IMG/VR virus record: IMGVR_UViG_3300010370_003901
Span: 1-25,005 of that record
DNA from: a virus
DNA length: 25,005 nucleotides
Reading direction: 5' to 3' (one strand)
In this document: positions 6,028 through 16,557 of the stretch, one piece after another
Layout of the letters: each line of letters opens with the position of its first letter
Numbering within the stretch: position 1 is the stretch's first letter
Program-made: the position numbers and the translations under genes
Notes under the pieces: generated by a model
The model's database searches: none
Told to the model about the DNA's origin: nothing
Seen by the model: the letters and a program-made list of their open reading frames with translations, nothing else

Positions 6028-6651
6028 ATGCCTAGTTCATTAGATGCACATATTTCAGAAACTGAAATAGAATGGTCAACCATCGATTACTTCAAAAAAG
6101 TAGTTCAATTTTTGAAATCAAGAGAAATTAAAACTGTATTAGATGTTGGTGGATGCACTGGTCAAGTTTCAGTCATGCTTCTTCATGAGATTCCTTCGAT
6201 TGAAAAAGTTACTATTCTTGAACCAGTGTTAGAAAATTATAATTTTATTGTAGATCGAGCAAAGAGTGCAGATTCTGCGAAAGTTGAAGTCCTTAATAAG
6301 GCTCTCTTTTATGGAGAGACTCACATCAAACTTGGTCAATGTGACAGTAACGTTGGTGGTTGGAGTTTCAAACACACTGGAAATCAAACTAATGAAGTAG
6401 AAACAACTACTTTGGAAGATTTTTCTGATATTGATTTTGCAAAAATTGATATTGAAGGTGCGGAGTTGAATGTAATTCCAGAATCAACTTACATCAATGA
6501 TATTCCATACTTAGAAGTTGAATTTCATGATGAACTTATGACATCATGGAAAACTTTTGTTGGTAAACATCTAAAAAACCATAAGGTTAAATTTGAAGGA
6601 AATCCAGACAGACCTCAAAATGTTTTCTTAGTGCGGAAGGATCTATACTAA
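6028..6651 (+). CDS. FkbM family SAM-dependent methyltransferase
   Basis: This is a class I methyltransferase of 207 residues, probably O-methylating a sugar of the glycan. Motif I is LDVGGCTGQVS near residues 40-50. The acidic motif ILEPV follows, then an FkbM-type DFAKIDIEGAELNVI near residue 138. A good Shine-Dalgarno sequence (AGGAGA just before 6028) supports the start. It lies between the GT11 and GT6 transferase genes with almost no spacing and ends in TAATG, shared with the GT6 start. It may therefore methylate the sugar added by one of those two enzymes. A second FkbM-type gene is at 18298. The acceptor is not predictable from sequence. Confidence 0.85.
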   Translation: MPSSLDAHISETEIEWSTIDYFKKVVQFLKSREIKTVLDVGGCTGQVSVMLLHEIPSIEKVTILEPVLENYNFIVDRAKSADSAKVEVLNKALFYGETHIKLGQCDSNVGGWSFKHTGNQTNEVETTTLEDFSDIDFAKIDIEGAELNVIPESTYINDIPYLEVEFHDELMTSWKTFVGKHLKNHKVKFEGNPDRPQNVFLVRKDLY

Positions 6652-7376
6652 TGAGACTAGCAGACTTAGCAGTTGTCTTTATTGGCACAAACAAATACTT
6701 AAATTTTCTCCCAACCTGGCATGAGTCTTGTGAAAAGTATCTTGCCCCAGGTCATAAGAAACAGTATTTTGTTTTTACTGATGGCGAATTGGAAGGAATT
6801 CCTGATAACATCACACCTTATTATCAGGAACATCTCTCTTGGCCTTACATTACACTGTATAGGTTTGGTACAATTTTGAGAGCAAAAGATGAATTAGAAA
6901 AATTTGATTATGTTCTCTTTTTGGATGCTGACATGCGTGTGGTTAATACCATAAGTGGAAATGAGATTTTTTCCAATAAGAAGTATATTGGTGTGAGGCA
7001 TCCATGCCACTTCATGCAGATGCCACCTCATGACAGGCACCCAGGTGCCTTCGAGACGCGACAAGAATCCACCGCAGGGATCGTTGAGGGTGACGATACT
7101 TCTATCTACTTTCAGGGGTGTCTGTGGGGTGGTAGAGTGCCTGATGTGATTGACATGATGGAAGAATTGGATCGTCGTACAAAGGATGATGAATCGCGGG
7201 ATGTGATTGCTGTATGGCATGATGAAAGTCAAATGAACAAGTTCTTTGCAGAAAGACCTGACGATGTTCATGTTCTTGGTCCATCTTATGCTTACCCAGA
7301 AATCTTTGCACAATATTGCAACTTCGAACCAAAAATTGTACATCTAGCAAAAGATAATTCTCAATATCAGCAATGA
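6651..7376 (+). CDS. GT6 family glycosyltransferase (ABO blood-group transferase-like)
   Basis: GT6 includes the human ABO transferases and alpha-1,3-galactosyltransferase, which add Gal or GalNAc with retention to a galactose. This 241-residue protein is essentially the catalytic domain only. It has KKQYFVFTDG (36-45), FLDADMRV (90-97) with a DXD metal motif at 92-94, RHPGAFETRQES (129-140), YFQGCLWGG (153-161) and AVWHDESQMNKFF (187-199); the WHDE segment is diagnostic. Many bacterial GT6 enzymes carry NXN in place of DXD, whereas this one keeps DXD like the vertebrate enzymes. There is no membrane anchor. A GC-rich patch with a 7-bp inverted repeat (7035-7050) stands out from the AT-rich surroundings. 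It is coupled by one-base overlap to the FkbM gene. Confidence 0.88.
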   Translation: MRLADLAVVFIGTNKYLNFLPTWHESCEKYLAPGHKKQYFVFTDGELEGIPDNITPYYQEHLSWPYITLYRFGTILRAKDELEKFDYVLFLDADMRVVNTISGNEIFSNKKYIGVRHPCHFMQMPPHDRHPGAFETRQESTAGIVEGDDTSIYFQGCLWGGRVPDVIDMMEELDRRTKDDESRDVIAVWHDESQMNKFFAERPDDVHVLGPSYAYPEIFAQYCNFEPKIVHLAKDNSQYQQ

Positions 7377-8221
7377 AAAAACTAGACACTGGATTGTCTG
7401 GTTGCAAGTTAGAGTTGATTCAACCTGACGTTCTTAGAAAATATTCTTCATCTTTCGAATACAACGAAAGGTTGAAACTGCAAATCAATAAGCAGAGATT
7501 ATTTTCAAATCTAGTCTTTAAAAATATACAAGCTCCAAAAGTTTTAAACACCAACTTTGATGACTTGTATTTTTTTGATATGGAATATGCTTCTGGATAT
7601 TCATTCTATGAATATTTTTCTGTATGTGGAGTTAATGATATTGAATTTATTCTTGAATCTTTATTCGGATACTTTGATTCATTAATATCAACTAAAAAAA
7701 GTTATAGACCAGAAACTTCTGAAAAAAAGATCATTGATAAAATAGAGTCATTAGAATCTAAAACTAATTTTCCAAGGCATCTTTCTTTTCTAAAAGACTT
7801 CGTTAACAAAAACGAATTGAATATACCACAATCTTTTTGTCATGGAGATCTTACATTTACTAATGTAATATTTCACCCAAATAGATTATATTTTATTGAC
7901 TTTTTGGATTGTTATATTGATTCATTTTTATCTGATCTTGTAAAGTTAAAGCAAGACTTATATTATTATTGGAGTCTAAACGTTCAACAAATCAAAAGTT
8001 TTAGAGTTGCACAGATATATTCTCATATTTGGAAAGAAATAGAAAAAAGATATTCTCAGTATATTCATACTAATGAGTTTGATGCACTTGACTTTTTGAA
8101 TACTTTGAGGTTGGATCCTTACTTGACCGATCCTAATCAAAGAATTATAATTGATAAAATGCTGAGAAAATCTAGTATACATGAAAACATTAATCGTTCC
8201 CATGGCTGGACGTTCGAGTAG
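7373..8221 (+). CDS. aminoglycoside-phosphotransferase-fold kinase
   Basis: This is a small-molecule kinase of 282 residues with the APH/choline-kinase fold. The Brenner motif CHGDLTFTN (156-164) supplies the catalytic Asp and Asn, and FIDFLD (174-179) the metal-binding Asp. The N-terminal lobe is diverged and no clear P-loop is visible. It overlaps GT6 by four bases (ATGA) and overlaps the next gene, a sugar nucleotidyltransferase-HAD fusion, by 41 bases. Pairs of this kind (for example AmgK with MurU, or LicA with LicC) phosphorylate and then nucleotidylate a sugar or choline-like alcohol. The substrate here is unknown; a salvaged sugar or amino-alcohol headgroup is the best guess. Confidence 0.75.
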   Translation: MKKLDTGLSGCKLELIQPDVLRKYSSSFEYNERLKLQINKQRLFSNLVFKNIQAPKVLNTNFDDLYFFDMEYASGYSFYEYFSVCGVNDIEFILESLFGYFDSLISTKKSYRPETSEKKIIDKIESLESKTNFPRHLSFLKDFVNKNELNIPQSFCHGDLTFTNVIFHPNRLYFIDFLDCYIDSFLSDLVKLKQDLYYYWSLNVQQIKSFRVAQIYSHIWKEIEKRYSQYIHTNEFDALDFLNTLRLDPYLTDPNQRIIIDKMLRKSSIHENINRSHGWTFE

Positions 8222-9239
8222 GTATCCAAATCTCCGTCCAAAGTGGATGCTGTCTCATCCAATGACAAACACTTTTATGGGAATATCTTCCATTCTCGGA
8301 TTGAATTTGGAATTCTTTGATCGTATTTATTTTGTTGCTCTTCAAGAACATCAAGACAAATATCAATTTCATTCTGGGTTTGTTGAAGAACTTCAAATGC
8401 ATGGTCTTGCTGAGAAGTCAGAAGTGGTATTTTTGGAAGAACAAACTTCTTCACAGTCTGAAACAGTGTGTAAGTTAATCGAGAAGAAAGATCTTGATGG
8501 GTTTATCTTCATCAAAGATTCTGATGGATACTACGAATGCAAGATCTACGATCAAGTGAATCAAGTTGCATTCTTTGATCTCAATGATATGGATGATATT
8601 AATGCTAGATCAAAAAGTTATATTGAACTAGACATTAATGGGGTGTTAACAAACATTGTTGAGAAGCATGTTGTAAGTTCTACATTTTCTTCTGGTGGAT
8701 ACGGATTTGCTAGTGCAAAGGAGTTTGTAGAAACTTATAAAAATATTCATGATTATCGCGATGAGTGTTATGTCAGTGATGTAATCTTCAACATGATGTT
8801 ATCTGGATCCAAATTCATAGGACTTAGAACATCAAATTTCAAAGATTGGGGAACTCTTGACGCATGGAACAAATATAAATCTCAGTATAAGTGCCTGTTT
8901 GTTGATATTGATGGAACCTTAGTGACAAACTCATCTCATCAATTTCCTCCTTATATTGGAGAAGGTCAATCTTTGACTGAAAACATATCTGTTCTGAGAG
9001 ACCTTTATTCTTCTGGCAAAGTAAAGATTATTCTAACAACCAGTCGTCCTGAAAGATATCGCAACACCACCATCAATGAACTTAAAGAAAAAGGAATTCC
9101 TTACGATGAAATTGTGATGGGACTTCCGCATTGCCAACGAGTCATTGTAAATGATTTTGCAAAGAGTAATCCTTACCCTTCTTGTGTAGCAATAAATATT
9201 CCACGGAATGAAAATAACTTGAAGGAGTTTTTGAAATGA
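8181..9239 (+). CDS. nucleotidyltransferase-HAD phosphatase fusion
   Basis: This is a two-domain protein of 352 residues. Residues 1-230 look like an NTP-transferase: VPMAGRSSRYP (7-16) is the nucleotide-binding loop, PKWML (20-24) follows, KDSDG (112-116) sits at the metal site, and VSDVIFNMMLSG and DWGTLDAW (222-229) are typical of the family. Residues 237-352 look like a HAD phosphatase: FVDIDGTLVTN (240-250) holds the two nucleophile/acid Asp residues, IILTTSR is motif II, and VIVNDFA carries the C-terminal acidic motif. It would activate a sugar phosphate and also remove a phosphate, perhaps from a precursor. The start at 8181 overlaps the kinase gene by 41 bases and is needed for the first beta strand. 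The substrate is not known. Confidence 0.8.
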   Translation: MKTLIVPMAGRSSRYPNLRPKWMLSHPMTNTFMGISSILGLNLEFFDRIYFVALQEHQDKYQFHSGFVEELQMHGLAEKSEVVFLEEQTSSQSETVCKLIEKKDLDGFIFIKDSDGYYECKIYDQVNQVAFFDLNDMDDINARSKSYIELDINGVLTNIVEKHVVSSTFSSGGYGFASAKEFVETYKNIHDYRDECYVSDVIFNMMLSGSKFIGLRTSNFKDWGTLDAWNKYKSQYKCLFVDIDGTLVTNSSHQFPPYIGEGQSLTENISVLRDLYSSGKVKIILTTSRPERYRNTTINELKEKGIPYDEIVMGLPHCQRVIVNDFAKSNPYPSCVAINIPRNENNLKEFLK

Positions 9240-10228
9240 GAATCTTGATTACAGGAGCAGCTGGTCAAATTGGTTCTGGTATCGCAAAACTTTTAATTAA
9301 AAAAGGTCATCAACTTACTCTTTGTGATAGTTTGAGAAACGGATATATTCAAAATTTAAAAAACGAAAATGGTGAGGTTATCGCACCATTTTTTCATGTA
9401 GACATTGAAAAACCAGACTTTTTTAAATGGTGTGAAGGTGAGTATGATGCTATTGTCCATCTAGCAGCAATCACCTCTCTACCAGATTGTGAATCTAATC
9501 CATTAGAAACAATTCGAATTAATGTTTCTGGAACTGCAAGTGTATTAGAGTTTGCTAGAAAGTACAACGTTCCTCATGTAATCTTTGCAAGCACTAGTGC
9601 TGTGTATGAAAACACGGATGCTGAGGTATTTACTGAGGACTTGGAAATCAATCCAAGACTTTATTATTCTCTATCCAAGAAAATGTCTGAGGATCTGATT
9701 GAATCTTATCGAGAAAATTACGGAAGCAAAGTCACCGTCCTTAGATTCTTCAATGTGTTTGGTCCAGATGGAGACCAGACAAGACCAAATCCACCACTTC
9801 TTAATTTTGTAGTTAGAGAACTCAAAAAGGGAGTGGCACCAGTTTTGAGTGGAGATGGAGAACAAGTCAGAGATTTTATATGGGTCAATGATGTAGTTTC
9901 TATGTTAGAATGTTGCTTAGAAAAGCAACCAAATGACGTGTTTAATGTTTGTACTGGTGTGACTGTAAGTGTCAATCAAATTGCAAAATGGGTTGCAGAA
10001 GCTTTGAATCTGGAACATCTTGGATTGGATCATAAACCAGCTCAGGAACTTTGGAGTCGTTATCCAAAAATGTTTGAGGGTCAATACCCCCTAAATAAGG
10101 AAATCGTTGCCAGGGAAACAACTCGTTATTCGAAGGGATCTTTTGAAAAAGCAAAAAGACTTTTGGGTTGGGAACCAAATACTGATATTGAAACACTAGT
10201 TAAACAAGTTACATTACAAATAAAATGA
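9236..10228 (+). CDS. NAD-dependent epimerase/dehydratase (UDP-glucose 4-epimerase-like)
   Basis: This is an extended short-chain dehydrogenase of 330 residues. It has ITGAAGQIGSG (5-15) for NAD binding, HLAAITS, an ASTSAVYE segment at the catalytic Ser/Thr, YSLSK with the catalytic Tyr/Lys, RFFNVFGP, and DGEQVRDFIWVNDV, which is typical of 4-epimerases. RYSKGSFEKAKRLLGWEPN near the C-terminus is also standard. It probably interconverts C4 epimers of a UDP- or GDP-sugar, for example supplying UDP-galactose or UDP-GalNAc for the GT6. That link is inference from proximity. Start and stop overlap both neighbours as ATGA. Confidence 0.8.
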   Translation: MRILITGAAGQIGSGIAKLLIKKGHQLTLCDSLRNGYIQNLKNENGEVIAPFFHVDIEKPDFFKWCEGEYDAIVHLAAITSLPDCESNPLETIRINVSGTASVLEFARKYNVPHVIFASTSAVYENTDAEVFTEDLEINPRLYYSLSKKMSEDLIESYRENYGSKVTVLRFFNVFGPDGDQTRPNPPLLNFVVRELKKGVAPVLSGDGEQVRDFIWVNDVVSMLECCLEKQPNDVFNVCTGVTVSVNQIAKWVAEALNLEHLGLDHKPAQELWSRYPKMFEGQYPLNKEIVARETTRYSKGSFEKAKRLLGWEPNTDIETLVKQVTLQIK

Positions 10229-10971
10229 GAATTGCATTATGTCTTTCTGGACAACCTCGATTTATTGATGAAGTTGCTCCATATATTTTAAAAAATGTCT
10301 GCGAAGGATACGAAGTAGATACTTTCATTCACTTTTGGTTTGATGAGAAACTTCAAACTGAACCATATAAGTTTGGTGGAGAATGGCCAAATCAAAGAAT
10401 TGCAACAAACGCTGTTGAAAGAGCCTTAGAAATCTATAAACCAATTTGCTATAAAATAGAACCAAGCAAAACTTTTGTTGATAGTAAAGTTCCATTTCAA
10501 CAATCTCTTGAAAGATATTGGTACGGATCTTTGAACGATCCTGAACCAGAACTTTTCAAATCAAGAACTATTAACAATTGCCTTTCTTATTTTTATAGTT
10601 TAAATGAGGTTAATAAGTTAAAGAAAGAATATGAGTATGCCCATGATTTTAAATATGATTGGGTCGTAAGATGTAGAACTGACACGGTTTTGCATACAAA
10701 AATTCCTTTTGAGGATCTTGATCCAGAAGTTGTACACTATTCAAGTCTTCAAAACCAACCTGATGGTATGGTAAATGACTGGTTTGATTTTGGTGGATCG
10801 AAACAGATGGATGTTTTCATGAGTGTTTTCCCAGTATGGCAACTAATGCTTGAAAAGTGCATGAATGAAACGGGAGCTTGGTGCCATGAGTTGATGCATC
10901 GCAAAATTCTTGATACATTTGGCATTGGAATCCAAGGACAACCAATTCATATTACATTACCTAGGTTTTAA
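10225..10971 (+). CDS. putative glycosyltransferase of the ALCLSGQPR type
   Basis: This 248-residue protein opens with MRIALCLSGQPRFIDE, a start I associate with uncharacterised glycosyltransferase-like proteins of viruses and marine bacteria. A later segment, DWVVRCRTDTVLH, resembles the DxD region of GT-A enzymes. The protein is rich in aromatic residues and has no signal peptide or membrane helix. It sits in a run of transferase genes with an ATGA overlap at its start and a five-base gap at its end. Catalysis is not proven by any motif, so the function rests mainly on context. It could also be a sugar-modifying enzyme of a new type. Confidence 0.5.
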   Translation: MRIALCLSGQPRFIDEVAPYILKNVCEGYEVDTFIHFWFDEKLQTEPYKFGGEWPNQRIATNAVERALEIYKPICYKIEPSKTFVDSKVPFQQSLERYWYGSLNDPEPELFKSRTINNCLSYFYSLNEVNKLKKEYEYAHDFKYDWVVRCRTDTVLHTKIPFEDLDPEVVHYSSLQNQPDGMVNDWFDFGGSKQMDVFMSVFPVWQLMLEKCMNETGAWCHELMHRKILDTFGIGIQGQPIHITLPRF

Positions 10972-12621: not shown

Positions 12622-13641
12622 ATGTCAAAAGTTGTTTTTGCGAAAGCACCTCTGCGTCTGGGATTGGCTGGCGGTGGAACTGATCTTGAACCATATCGAA
12701 AAGAATATGGTGGAGTTGTTCTGAGTGGAACAATAGATCAGTATGCATATTGCAAAGTTGAACCTTGGGATGATTGGTGCTTTAAGAGCGTTGATTTGGA
12801 CCTAGAAGAGACTCATACTTTCTATGAGTCTATTGACTGCTCTACTTCATTAAAACTCCTCATAACCCCCTACAAGCACCTTATGGATGGGTGTGGTCAA
12901 AGGACACCCATTAAGATCACCACATACGTTGAGGCACCTCCTGGTAGTGGATTGGGAAGTTCTAGTGCTTTGGTTGTTGCAGTTGTGTCTGCTCTTTGCG
13001 AGTATCATAACTTGCCAAAGGATGAGTATGAGATTGCAAATCTTGCGGTTCATGTTGAAAGAAACTTATGCGAACTTCCAGGTGGATTGCAAGATCAGTA
13101 CTCTGCTTCTTTTGGTGGATTCAATTACATTGAGTTTTTGGAAAGTGGAAGAACAATTGTGAATCCACTTCGATTGAATTATAAAATCCAAAATATGTTG
13201 GAACTTAACACAGTTCTATACTATGTTGGAACTCCTCGAAAAGATGCTCACGTCATTGATGCAACTTCTGAGAATCTCAGAAATAACAAATCAACTTTGG
13301 AAGCCACGCATAAAATCAAAGATGCTTGTGTTGAGTTTAAACAAAGTTTGTTAGTTGGAGATGTGAAGAAAATTTCTGATTTGATGAATGAGTATTGGAC
13401 TCATAAACTTAAAACAAGTAGCAAAGTTGCTAACGCTAAGATGTTAGATGTCTATGACTTTGCTATGAAAAATGGTGCAACTGCTGCTAAAATATCTGGT
13501 GCTGGTGGTGGCGGGCATATGATCTTCTTTACGGATTTTGAACGGAGGCACAAACTACTAACAGCACTTAAAGAAATTCCAGATGGAAGAGTAGTTCCTT
13601 TTAAATTTGTTAAACATGGAGTAGACGTTTGGAGACAATGA
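12622..13641 (+). CDS. hddA: D-glycero-D-manno-heptose 7-phosphate kinase-like GHMP kinase
   Basis: HddA phosphorylates D,D-heptose 7-phosphate at C1 to give the 1,7-bisphosphate, on the route to GDP-D,D-heptose. This 339-residue protein has the GHMP kinase motifs in order: APLRLGLAGGGTDLEPY (9-25), PPGSGLGSSSALVVA (106-120, the ATP-binding loop) and ISGAGGGGHMIFF near residue 291. CELPGGLQDQYSASFGG carries the Asp region of the active site. The PLRLGLAGGGTD start is characteristic of the heptose/fucokinase branch rather than galactokinase. The HddC-like gene lies at 15910, three genes downstream. The earlier isomerase (GmhA) and a dedicated phosphatase (GmhB) are not seen in this window. Confidence 0.85.
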   Translation: MSKVVFAKAPLRLGLAGGGTDLEPYRKEYGGVVLSGTIDQYAYCKVEPWDDWCFKSVDLDLEETHTFYESIDCSTSLKLLITPYKHLMDGCGQRTPIKITTYVEAPPGSGLGSSSALVVAVVSALCEYHNLPKDEYEIANLAVHVERNLCELPGGLQDQYSASFGGFNYIEFLESGRTIVNPLRLNYKIQNMLELNTVLYYVGTPRKDAHVIDATSENLRNNKSTLEATHKIKDACVEFKQSLLVGDVKKISDLMNEYWTHKLKTSSKVANAKMLDVYDFAMKNGATAAKISGAGGGGHMIFFTDFERRHKLLTALKEIPDGRVVPFKFVKHGVDVWRQ

Positions 13642-15542: not shown

Positions 15543-15941
15543 ATGGAAAGATTGAGCGATAGTTTTCTTCAAAAAACAATTGAGTTACCTCAGAAAAATC
15601 AAGAAATTCATCCAAAGGGTTGGGGATATGAAAACTGGATTGTAAACAATTCTCAGTATTGTGGAAAGGTTCTTTTCTTTGAGGCTGGTAAGAAGTGTTC
15701 CTGGCACTATCACAAAATTAAAGACGAAACCTTCTACATTCAGAGTGGATCTATTATGCTCACATATGGTGAGGATGATGATATCACAAAAGCAAGTCAA
15801 GTCATTTTAGATAAAGGTGACAGATTTCATGTTTATCCAGGTCTTAGGCATCAAATGCAAGCCTATGAGGATACTGAACTAATTGAATTTTCTACACAAC
15901 ATTTTGAGGATGATAGTTACAGAGTTATCAAAGGGGATTAA
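15543..15941 (+). CDS. cupin-domain protein, possible sugar isomerase or epimerase
   Basis: This single-domain cupin has 132 residues. The metal-binding set is visible as His55, His57 and Glu62 in SWHYHKIKDETFYIQSG (53-69) and His103 in YPGLRHQM. It opens with KGWGYENWIVNN, as in type II mannose-6-phosphate isomerase and GDP-mannose-associated cupins. It lies between a methyltransferase and the HddC-like gene, which overlaps its last 32 bases. A role in heptose or mannose-type sugar phosphate chemistry is therefore likely but unproven. No Shine-Dalgarno sequence is obvious before the ATG at 15543, so translation may be coupled to the preceding stop. Confidence 0.7.
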   Translation: MERLSDSFLQKTIELPQKNQEIHPKGWGYENWIVNNSQYCGKVLFFEAGKKCSWHYHKIKDETFYIQSGSIMLTYGEDDDITKASQVILDKGDRFHVYPGLRHQMQAYEDTELIEFSTQHFEDDSYRVIKGD

Positions 15942-16557
15942 ACTATATCTGCTTGTTGGAGGAAAGGGAACAAGACTTTCCTCCGTTACAAATGGAATTC
16001 CCAAACCGTTGGTTGATGTATGCGGTAAACCATTCATCACTAGGATGATTGAAAACCTTTCTGGGTTTGATATTACTCTTGTTTGTTCTGATTTAAATTA
16101 TCATTTCTTTCAGGACTTAGGTGTTGATGTTTTTAATGAAGGTGAATTATCTGGAACTGGTGGATTTCTTTCAAAAGTAAATCTGCCAGAGTCTTTTTAT
16201 GTTATGAATGGAGACACTTTTTATTCTGGCGACCTAAACTTGGATTGTACTGAGTCAACCATTTTTGTCAAAAAGGAAAAAGTAACTGGGGATGAAGGGT
16301 ACATTATTGAAAAGGATGGTAGAGTTGATTGCTACGTCGAAAAAAATATCTTTGCTGCTGGTGAAACTCACCTAGTAAATCTAGGAATTTACAAGTTTTA
16401 TAAAAAAGATTTGTATCTACCAAATAGATTTCCTATTAGCATAGAGTATGATATACTGAATGAAATAGACTTGTCATACAAAGTTTTAGATACTGATAGA
16501 TTTGACATTGGAACCCCAGAAAGATTGGAGAGATTTAGAGAATGGTTCAATATTTAA
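15910..16557 (+). CDS. hddC: D-glycero-D-manno-heptose 1-phosphate guanylyltransferase-like
   Basis: HddC makes GDP-D,D-heptose from GTP and heptose 1-phosphate. This 215-residue protein has LLVGGKGTRLSS near residue 13 (nucleotide-binding loop), IPKPLVDVCGKPF, MNGDTFYSGDL (metal-binding Asp region) and a FDIGTPERLERFREW C-terminus close to the HddC ending. Both length and pattern separate it from the longer mannose-1-phosphate guanylyltransferases. The start is uncertain. The ATG at 15910 lies 32 bases inside the cupin gene and gives about ten residues before the core; an in-frame TTG at 15883 is weaker. It forms a module with the HddA-like kinase (12622) and the dehydratase/reductase at 16542. 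Confidence 0.8.
   Translation: MIVTELSKGIKLYLLVGGKGTRLSSVTNGIPKPLVDVCGKPFITRMIENLSGFDITLVCSDLNYHFFQDLGVDVFNEGELSGTGGFLSKVNLPESFYVMNGDTFYSGDLNLDCTESTIFVKKEKVTGDEGYIIEKDGRVDCYVEKNIFAAGETHLVNLGIYKFYKKDLYLPNRFPISIEYDILNEIDLSYKVLDTDRFDIGTPERLERFREWFNI

Follow-up and report, generated by a model that had tools for sequence, protein, structure and literature searches.

The window analysed in this study, i.e. the whole of the 25,005-base virus record IMGVR_UViG_3300010370_003901, carries an APH-fold kinase gene (KIN), a gene for a nucleotidyltransferase-HAD fusion protein (NT-HAD) and a gene for a GalE-type SDR (EPI), which together probably constitute a transferable cassette making a nucleotide-activated sugar for surface glycans, with steps ordered in a MupP-like manner. 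The novelty lies in this unannotated gene set, while the logic of combining a kinase, a nucleotidyltransferase (NT) and a HAD phosphatase is that already known from MupP/AmgK/MurU. The relevant features are as follows:

6651..7376, plus strand: GT6-family glycosyltransferase (PF03414, 4e-22), just 5' of KIN
7373..8221, plus strand: KIN, APH-fold small-molecule kinase, 282 aa (PF01636)
8181..8221, plus strand: KIN/NT-HAD gene overlap, 41 bp
8181-9239, plus strand: NT-HAD protein, 352 aa
8181..8885, plus strand: predicted sugar-1-phosphate nucleotidyltransferase-fold domain, residues 1-235 (model fold and conserved residues)
8889..9239, plus strand: C0-type HAD phosphatase-like domain, residues 237-352 plus stop codon (motifs and weak Pfam HAD matches)
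9236..10228, plus strand: EPI, GalE-type NAD-dependent SDR epimerase/dehydratase (PF01370, 5e-51)
10225..10971, plus strand: DUF7796 protein, putative glycosyltransferase after the cassette (PF25072, 37.6 bits against a cut-off of 27)
12622-13641 and 15883-16557: HddA- and HddC-like genes, in the same island as the cassette

An earlier note on this DNA had described a kinase gene overlapping an NT-HAD fusion gene by 41 bases, and both open reading frames were confirmed; the unit had, however, been drawn one gene short, as EPI belongs to the cassette as its third gene.

At the DNA level the window has matches in T4-like Synechococcus phages, Bellamy, S-SM2 and SynMITS9220M01 among them, and it starts with a tRNA-Met, as does the comparable island of phage Bellamy. 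Its content is mostly that of a glycan island, comprising SDRs, RmlC, GT11, GT6, GT25, methyltransferases and the HddA-/HddC-like genes, and the KIN/NT-HAD/EPI cassette sits within this glycan island of a T4-like cyanophage. The GT6 gene overlaps the start of KIN by four bases (ATGA) and is a neighbour in many, though not all, relatives, making it no constant part of the cassette. In phages Thanatos and RB69, NT genes serve DNA glycosylation in the form of pentose modification of phage DNA (PMC12838424). A role of this type was considered for the cassette, whose neighbours are surface-glycan genes instead.

The pairing of KIN with NT-HAD is real and goes far beyond chance. A protein search returned 37 viral loci and an alignment search 48, and among the close viral records, the window included, a KIN/NT-HAD overlap of 38 or 41 bp recurs in 31 of 32, the remaining record reading a 116-bp overlap because of a longer ORF call; the pair is also present in many bacteria. 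Where a locus extends far enough upstream to be scored, KIN is the gene immediately 5' of NT-HAD in 31/31 close viral, 42/43 distant viral and 28/31 bacterial cases; the figures represent contigs rather than events, since many contigs are near-duplicates. The exceptions include one distant viral locus, in which KIN is one gene away, and two bacterial loci, in which it lies downstream. The earlier note had proposed co-occurrence in phages and bacteria as a check, and since KIN adjoins NT-HAD in both, the pair is not unique to the window. Pairwise distances of KIN and NT-HAD are strongly correlated (r=0.93, n=96 loci; r=0.91 for bacteria only, n=24; permutation p 0.001), as are those of EPI and NT-HAD (r=0.84, n=53 loci). 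A tree requires only four virus/cell changes, indicating that exchange between phages and cells was infrequent in the sample analysed.

Concerning distribution, a contig scan with two alignment-derived patterns gave no match, the patterns being too virus-specific, and the HAD motif NDFAx(S/T)NPYPS was used to scan viral contigs and bacterial genomes. Essentially all intact proteins among the matches listed for the viral contigs were NT-HAD fusions, while the bacterial scan returned 40 stretches, 36 of which had a protein of suitable length and were retained. The bacteria concerned include gut alphaproteobacteria, Azospirillum, rhizobia, Gastranaerophilales, an Elusimicrobium, Planctomycetota and a Pelagibacteraceae single cell, among others. 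Matches at E 1e-30 were obtained in 3/385 genomes of one class and 5/386 of one phylum, the centre genome being included in each, and two and three of these, respectively, have strong full-length matches. The NT-HAD family is rare and patchy among the sampled bacterial genomes and common in viral contigs. Among the phage records searched, the full NT-HAD protein was found in Marine virus AG-345-E15 only, while plasmid searches returned NT relatives only, none with a fused HAD domain; several of these plasmid relatives lie near a stand-alone HAD gene and some near WavE. No description of the NT-HAD family was found in the literature searched, with subscription papers mostly outside that search.

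KIN scores 32.2 bits on the Pfam APH family PF01636 (cut-off 23.2) and is a member of it. Its AlphaFold model (pLDDT 88.5) matches APH(4), APH(2''), fructosamine-3-kinase, maltokinase and glucosamine kinase with Z scores of 16.6-14, near-ties that name no substrate. Both the HxDxxxxN motif and the DFG-equivalent Asp are intact, D159, N164 and D176 being invariant in 83/83 sequences, whereas position 157 is His in 75 and Cys in eight, and K23 is kept in 80. AmgK, an APH-type kinase, is like NahK and maltokinase an APH-fold anomeric kinase which acts on free sugars.

The two domains reported earlier for the NT-HAD protein were both recovered. In the whole-protein model (pLDDT 80.9, with low confidence near residues 138-143, 163-170 and 327-333), residues 1-235 adopt a sugar-nucleotidyltransferase fold whose best match is 4evw (Z 22.6, 218 residues, rmsd 2.7), with GlmU (Z 20.0) and LicC (1jyk, Z 18.7) scoring lower and HddC and RmlA also among the Foldseek matches. 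The catalytic positions are strongly conserved: D113, D115 and E161 in 113/113, K21 in 112/113 and R14 in 106/113. On its modelled GT-A-like fold, signature Arg/Lys and metal-binding Asp, the domain is predicted to be a sugar-1-phosphate nucleotidyltransferase. No Pfam nucleotidyltransferase family was matched above cut-off, the MurU models (NF045761, NF045697) were not among the matches of the window protein, and the HddC and RfaE heptose nucleotidyltransferase models gave no match to its NT domain.

Residues 237-352 retain the HAD motifs intact, namely motif I (D242-I-D244-G-T), motif II (T287), R289 and R320, and motif IV (N324-D325, then FAxSNPYPS). The earlier note had held that a HAD domain lacking catalytic geometry would speak against its proposal, and the opposite was found: D242, D244, R289, R320, N324 and D325 are invariant in 113/113 and T287 is kept in 112/113, where N324/D325 are conserved by construction in loci found via the HAD motif and the remaining residues are not in the search motif. 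The domain is of the short, capless type. No Pfam HAD family was matched at cut-off, HAD_2 (the MupP type) was not matched at all, and on EcbF-BcbF (TIGR01689) the window protein reaches 12.9 bits against a cut-off of 162 and is not a member. As the whole-protein fold search was dominated by the NT domain, the HAD fold was assigned from motifs and weak profile matches, with no confident family match. By its superfamily motifs (DxDG, S/T, K/R and acidic motif IV) it is a predicted phosphatase.

These weak matches are sub-cut-off Pfam hits to HAD_SAK_2, HAD_PNKP and Acid_phosphat_B and profile matches to Pnkp1 (4xrp, E 0.009) and 1xpj (E 0.41). The resemblance to HAD_PNKP, HAD_SAK_2 and Pnkp1 raises the idea of nucleic-acid end repair, in which kinase, phosphatase and nucleotidyltransferase would act on RNA or DNA ends. 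This is at odds with a sugar-nucleotidyltransferase-type NT fold, an APH-fold kinase and neighbours that are glycosyltransferases, methyltransferases and sugar SDRs, and we reject this explanation as extremely improbable. HAD phosphatases are often promiscuous, and for activating a free sugar a kinase and an NT would suffice, so that the HAD domain might instead perform no pathway step and act in house-cleaning or proof-reading, removing a wrong sugar phosphate or limiting the NDP-sugar pool. We deem this very unlikely: almost every intact copy recovered has the HAD domain fused to NT, and in most homologue pairs it is better conserved than the NT half, for which reason it cannot be considered a relic; furthermore, glycan loci contain similar NT partners that have combined with HAD domains of other types, suggesting a pathway step.

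EPI and the glycosyltransferases inform the nature of the product. The EPI gene overlaps the end of NT-HAD by ATGA and is itself overlapped by the DUF7796 gene. The structures nearest to EPI are those of UDP-glucose 4-epimerases and their relatives, its catalytic residues S119/T120, Y144 and K148 are invariant in 57/57 sequences, and it scores 137 bits on galE (TIGR01179, cut-off 262.3), so it is not a GalE equivalog; it likewise fails the HldD heptose epimerase model (119.6 bits, cut-off 274.6). An EPI orthologue lies directly 3' of NT-HAD in 28/31 close viral, 18/42 distant viral and 6/27 bacterial loci, and bacterial orthologues occur in L220, L221, L224, L233, L237 and L239. This position lacks it in 24/42 distant viral and 21/27 bacterial loci, so that epimerisation would not be obligatory. 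DUF7796 proteins are present in 26/31 close and 24/47 distant viral loci, and WavE-like proteins (PF07507, matched at 6e-56 by the one in L213) in 15/36 bacterial loci; an hhalign comparison of the local DUF7796 and WavE alignments gave a short and weak match (probability 69%, 65 columns). GalE-type SDRs act on nucleotide sugars, and mainly for this reason the product is read as a probable NDP-sugar. The neighbours do not reveal the substrate, since the specificity of EPI, WavE and DUF7796 is broad or undefined.

The earlier note had suggested a possible new activated headgroup, citing choline (LicA/LicC) and MurNAc (AmgK/MurU) activation. In a LicA/LicC-type scheme, choline, ethanolamine, glycerol or another alcohol would be activated and the HAD domain would be an accessory phosphatase. 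KIN and the NT domain do share the kinase superfamily of LicA and the NT fold of LicC, and L213 and L248 have a LicC-like NT-HAD fusion in the immediate neighbourhood. Since EPI follows the pair and DUF7796 or WavE is often nearby, a nucleotide sugar appears the better reading than a choline-like headgroup: a conserved GalE-type SDR and glycosyltransferases accompany the pair, Pfam scans covering 30 window ORFs gave no LicD or CDP-alcohol phosphotransferase, and among many near-tied NT folds LicC ranks below 4evw and GlmU. Alcohol activation is consequently improbable in our estimation.

Nor did the fused phosphatase prove as unusual as the earlier note had supposed. Combinations of HAD and NT recur in L253, L258, L260, L262, L263 and L213 and in S-CAM9 gp067 and S-8S55, making a fused phosphatase a recurrent feature of such loci. 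Parallel ARRANGEMENTS combine NT domains of this general kind with HAD domains of other types. L253 and L259 encode an NT-EcbF-type-HAD-kinase triple fusion beside WavE (the kinase part of L253 being recognised from HGD...N and D motifs, with no Pfam kinase family at E 0.01), L261 has a kinase-HAD-NT-WavE gene run in which EcKL is the sole match of the kinase and is below cut-off, and L258 encodes an NT-EcbF fusion. The L253 and L261 loci resemble the cassette in uniting the three predicted activities, within a single protein or gene run, next to WavE, and differ in their EcbF-BcbF-family HAD (TIGR01689), distant NT and other domain order; solved proteins related to this type are 4evw (NT, Vibrio cholerae) and 1xpj (HAD). 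The triple fusion suggests, as independent support, that kinase, NT and HAD act in one pathway.

The order searched yielded HAD_2-NT fusions in three genomes (L260, L262 and L263), and cultured cyanophages (S-CAM9 gp067 and S-8S55) have them too, placed among glycosyltransferases in islands, as exemplified by gp067. They too hold HAD and NT in one protein, but the HAD is N-terminal, beta-phosphoglucomutase-like and has a cap, and no APH kinase is adjacent in the loci read, perhaps because a mutase makes the 1-phosphate directly. A HAD of this kind without a kinase (L260, S-CAM9) would fit entry of a sugar 6-phosphate. Genes 204-206 of Synechococcus phage Bellamy likewise bring together HAD, sugar kinase and NT in the glycan island that follows tRNA-Met in this cyanophage, although here the HAD is KdsC-like, the kinase PfkB-like and the NT fused to an RpiB-type sugar-phosphate isomerase. 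The position of the cassettes suggests that HAD/NT cassettes may be exchanged within cyanophage islands. The other domain forms (L253, L261, S-CAM9 gp067 and Bellamy) also occur in glycan loci and were counted in favour of the pathway.

The proposal of a pathway built on kinase, NT and HAD, made in the earlier note, is upheld, as the two genes are linked nearly everywhere that NT-HAD was found and their catalytic residues are invariant or nearly so. Gene order, co-inheritance, the kinase and NT folds and the intact catalytic residues all support it. In the scheme that we favour, a sugar phosphate drawn from central metabolism would first lose its distal phosphate through the HAD domain, the kinase of APH fold would then phosphorylate the anomeric carbon of the freed sugar, the NT domain would join the resulting sugar 1-phosphate to an NTP, the GalE-type SDR would epimerise the NDP-sugar and a nearby DUF7796 or WavE-type transferase would use it. 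From the computed evidence we infer the NDP-sugar product and its use by DUF7796 or WavE, as well as the step order, the anomeric specificity, the nucleotide and the sugar, placing HAD first by analogy.

This analogy is with the anabolic MurNAc recycling of Pseudomonas, already a kinase, NT and HAD pathway, in which the HAD protein MupP converts MurNAc 6-P to MurNAc, AmgK is the anomeric kinase and MurU the uridylyltransferase (PMC5371407). In both systems a sugar kinase is adjacent to a sugar-1-phosphate NT and, in MurNAc recycling, the HAD sugar-6-phosphate phosphatase acts earlier. In P. putida, however, mupP (PP_1764) is a separate HAD_2-family gene away from amgK-murU (PP_0405-0406), whereas the cassette has a C0-type HAD fused to NT, no MurU match and an additional SDR epimerase, and its setting is glycan islands rather than cell-wall recycling.

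The order of steps is not set by sequence, and a GmhB-like order fits equally well. Activation of GDP- or ADP-heptose, by HldE/GmhB/HldD or HddA/GmhB/HddC, also employs a kinase, a HAD phosphatase, an NT and an SDR epimerase, the same set as the cassette, and by such a route the kinase would act first, turning a sugar phosphate into a 1,n-bisphosphate from which the HAD domain would remove the distal phosphate (the GmhB step) before the NT and SDR (HldD) steps. The score of EPI on the heptose epimerase model and the HddA-/HddC-like genes of the same island are in keeping with this. Yet KIN is APH-fold, neither GHMP nor PfkB, GmhB is unfused, the window NT matches no heptose nucleotidyltransferase model, EPI falls below the HldD cut-off and scores higher on galE, and the APH-fold anomeric kinases noted above use free sugars. 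We therefore hold the bisphosphate route to be possible but rather unlikely.

As the window proteins fail the curated MurU, HddC, HldD, GalE and EcbF-BcbF models, we assign them to none of these families; they may nevertheless work like MupP/AmgK/MurU. More speculatively, and only as a tentative suggestion, the cassette could make a nucleotide sugar of no known pathway, from a sugar phosphate new to activation, and T4-like cyanophages could carry it, swapping it for other HAD/NT cassettes, and so decorate either the surface of the infected host or their own virions. This study redefines an unannotated phage gene pair as part of a cassette of three enzymes whose product can be tested, and the members of this cassette escape the curated families searched. 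For the glycan islands of cyanophages, whose role is not settled, the identity of the NDP-sugar, if found, would help to provide an explanation.

Further fusions involving nucleotidyltransferase (NT) domains were located among the compared loci:

L253:1501-3357 (the same place as L259), one 618-aa protein comprising an NT domain, an EcbF-type HAD domain and a kinase-like part
L213:2133-3644 and L248:5392-6906, a LicC-like NT fused to a Hydrolase_6 HAD, distinct from the window-type NT-HAD fusion

The kinase-like part of the triple fusion carries APH motifs and a gene for the putative glycosyltransferase WavE adjoins the fusion gene on the opposite strand. A full-length match was obtained only in the fusion's own genome among 147 genomes of its order. 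In L213 and L248, NT-HAD is followed directly by the LicC-like fusion and then by a c7 protein, which by eye looks similar to TagF; this perhaps represents a CDP-glycerol route. In locus L094, a kinase precedes a 216-aa ORF, which may be the NT part, and a separate downstream ORF encoding the 138-aa HAD part, an arrangement that may reflect a natural split or a frameshift.

The glycan island of the window, which comes from a cyanophage, also encodes:

12622-13641, HddA-like heptose 7-phosphate kinase (290 bits, below the cut-off of 600)
15883-16557, HddC-like nucleotidyltransferase
6651-7376, GT6-family glycosyltransferase of the ABO-like family (PF03414, 4e-22)

Among the ORFs of the window that were scanned, neither GmhA nor GmhB turned up. 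The GT6 gene is neighboured by GT11 and FkbM methyltransferase genes.

On plasmids of Acetobacter, Scandinavium, Roseinatronobacter and Pseudomonas aeruginosa (L041-L044), the NT domain aligns with proteins that carry the label 'glycosyltransferase family 2' but are probably misannotated nucleotidyltransferases; a HAD phosphatase gene lies within a few kb of each, and WavE is also nearby in two of these loci. Cyanophage annotations of relevance are:

L267:5627-6784, Synechococcus phage Bellamy gene 206, NT fused to an RpiB/LacAB sugar-phosphate isomerase, annotated 'phosphatase'
L270:7300-7611, phage S-SM2 SSM2_207, small HAD-like protein (VDIDETICHRE...), annotated phosphoheptose isomerase

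A HAD resembling KdsC and a kinase resembling PfkB come before Bellamy gene 206. Within the window NT-HAD protein, it is the HAD domain that matches PHROG 1238, likewise labelled phosphoheptose isomerase; this label appears to be wrong for both SSM2_207 and PHROG 1238, and may misdirect cyanophage annotation.
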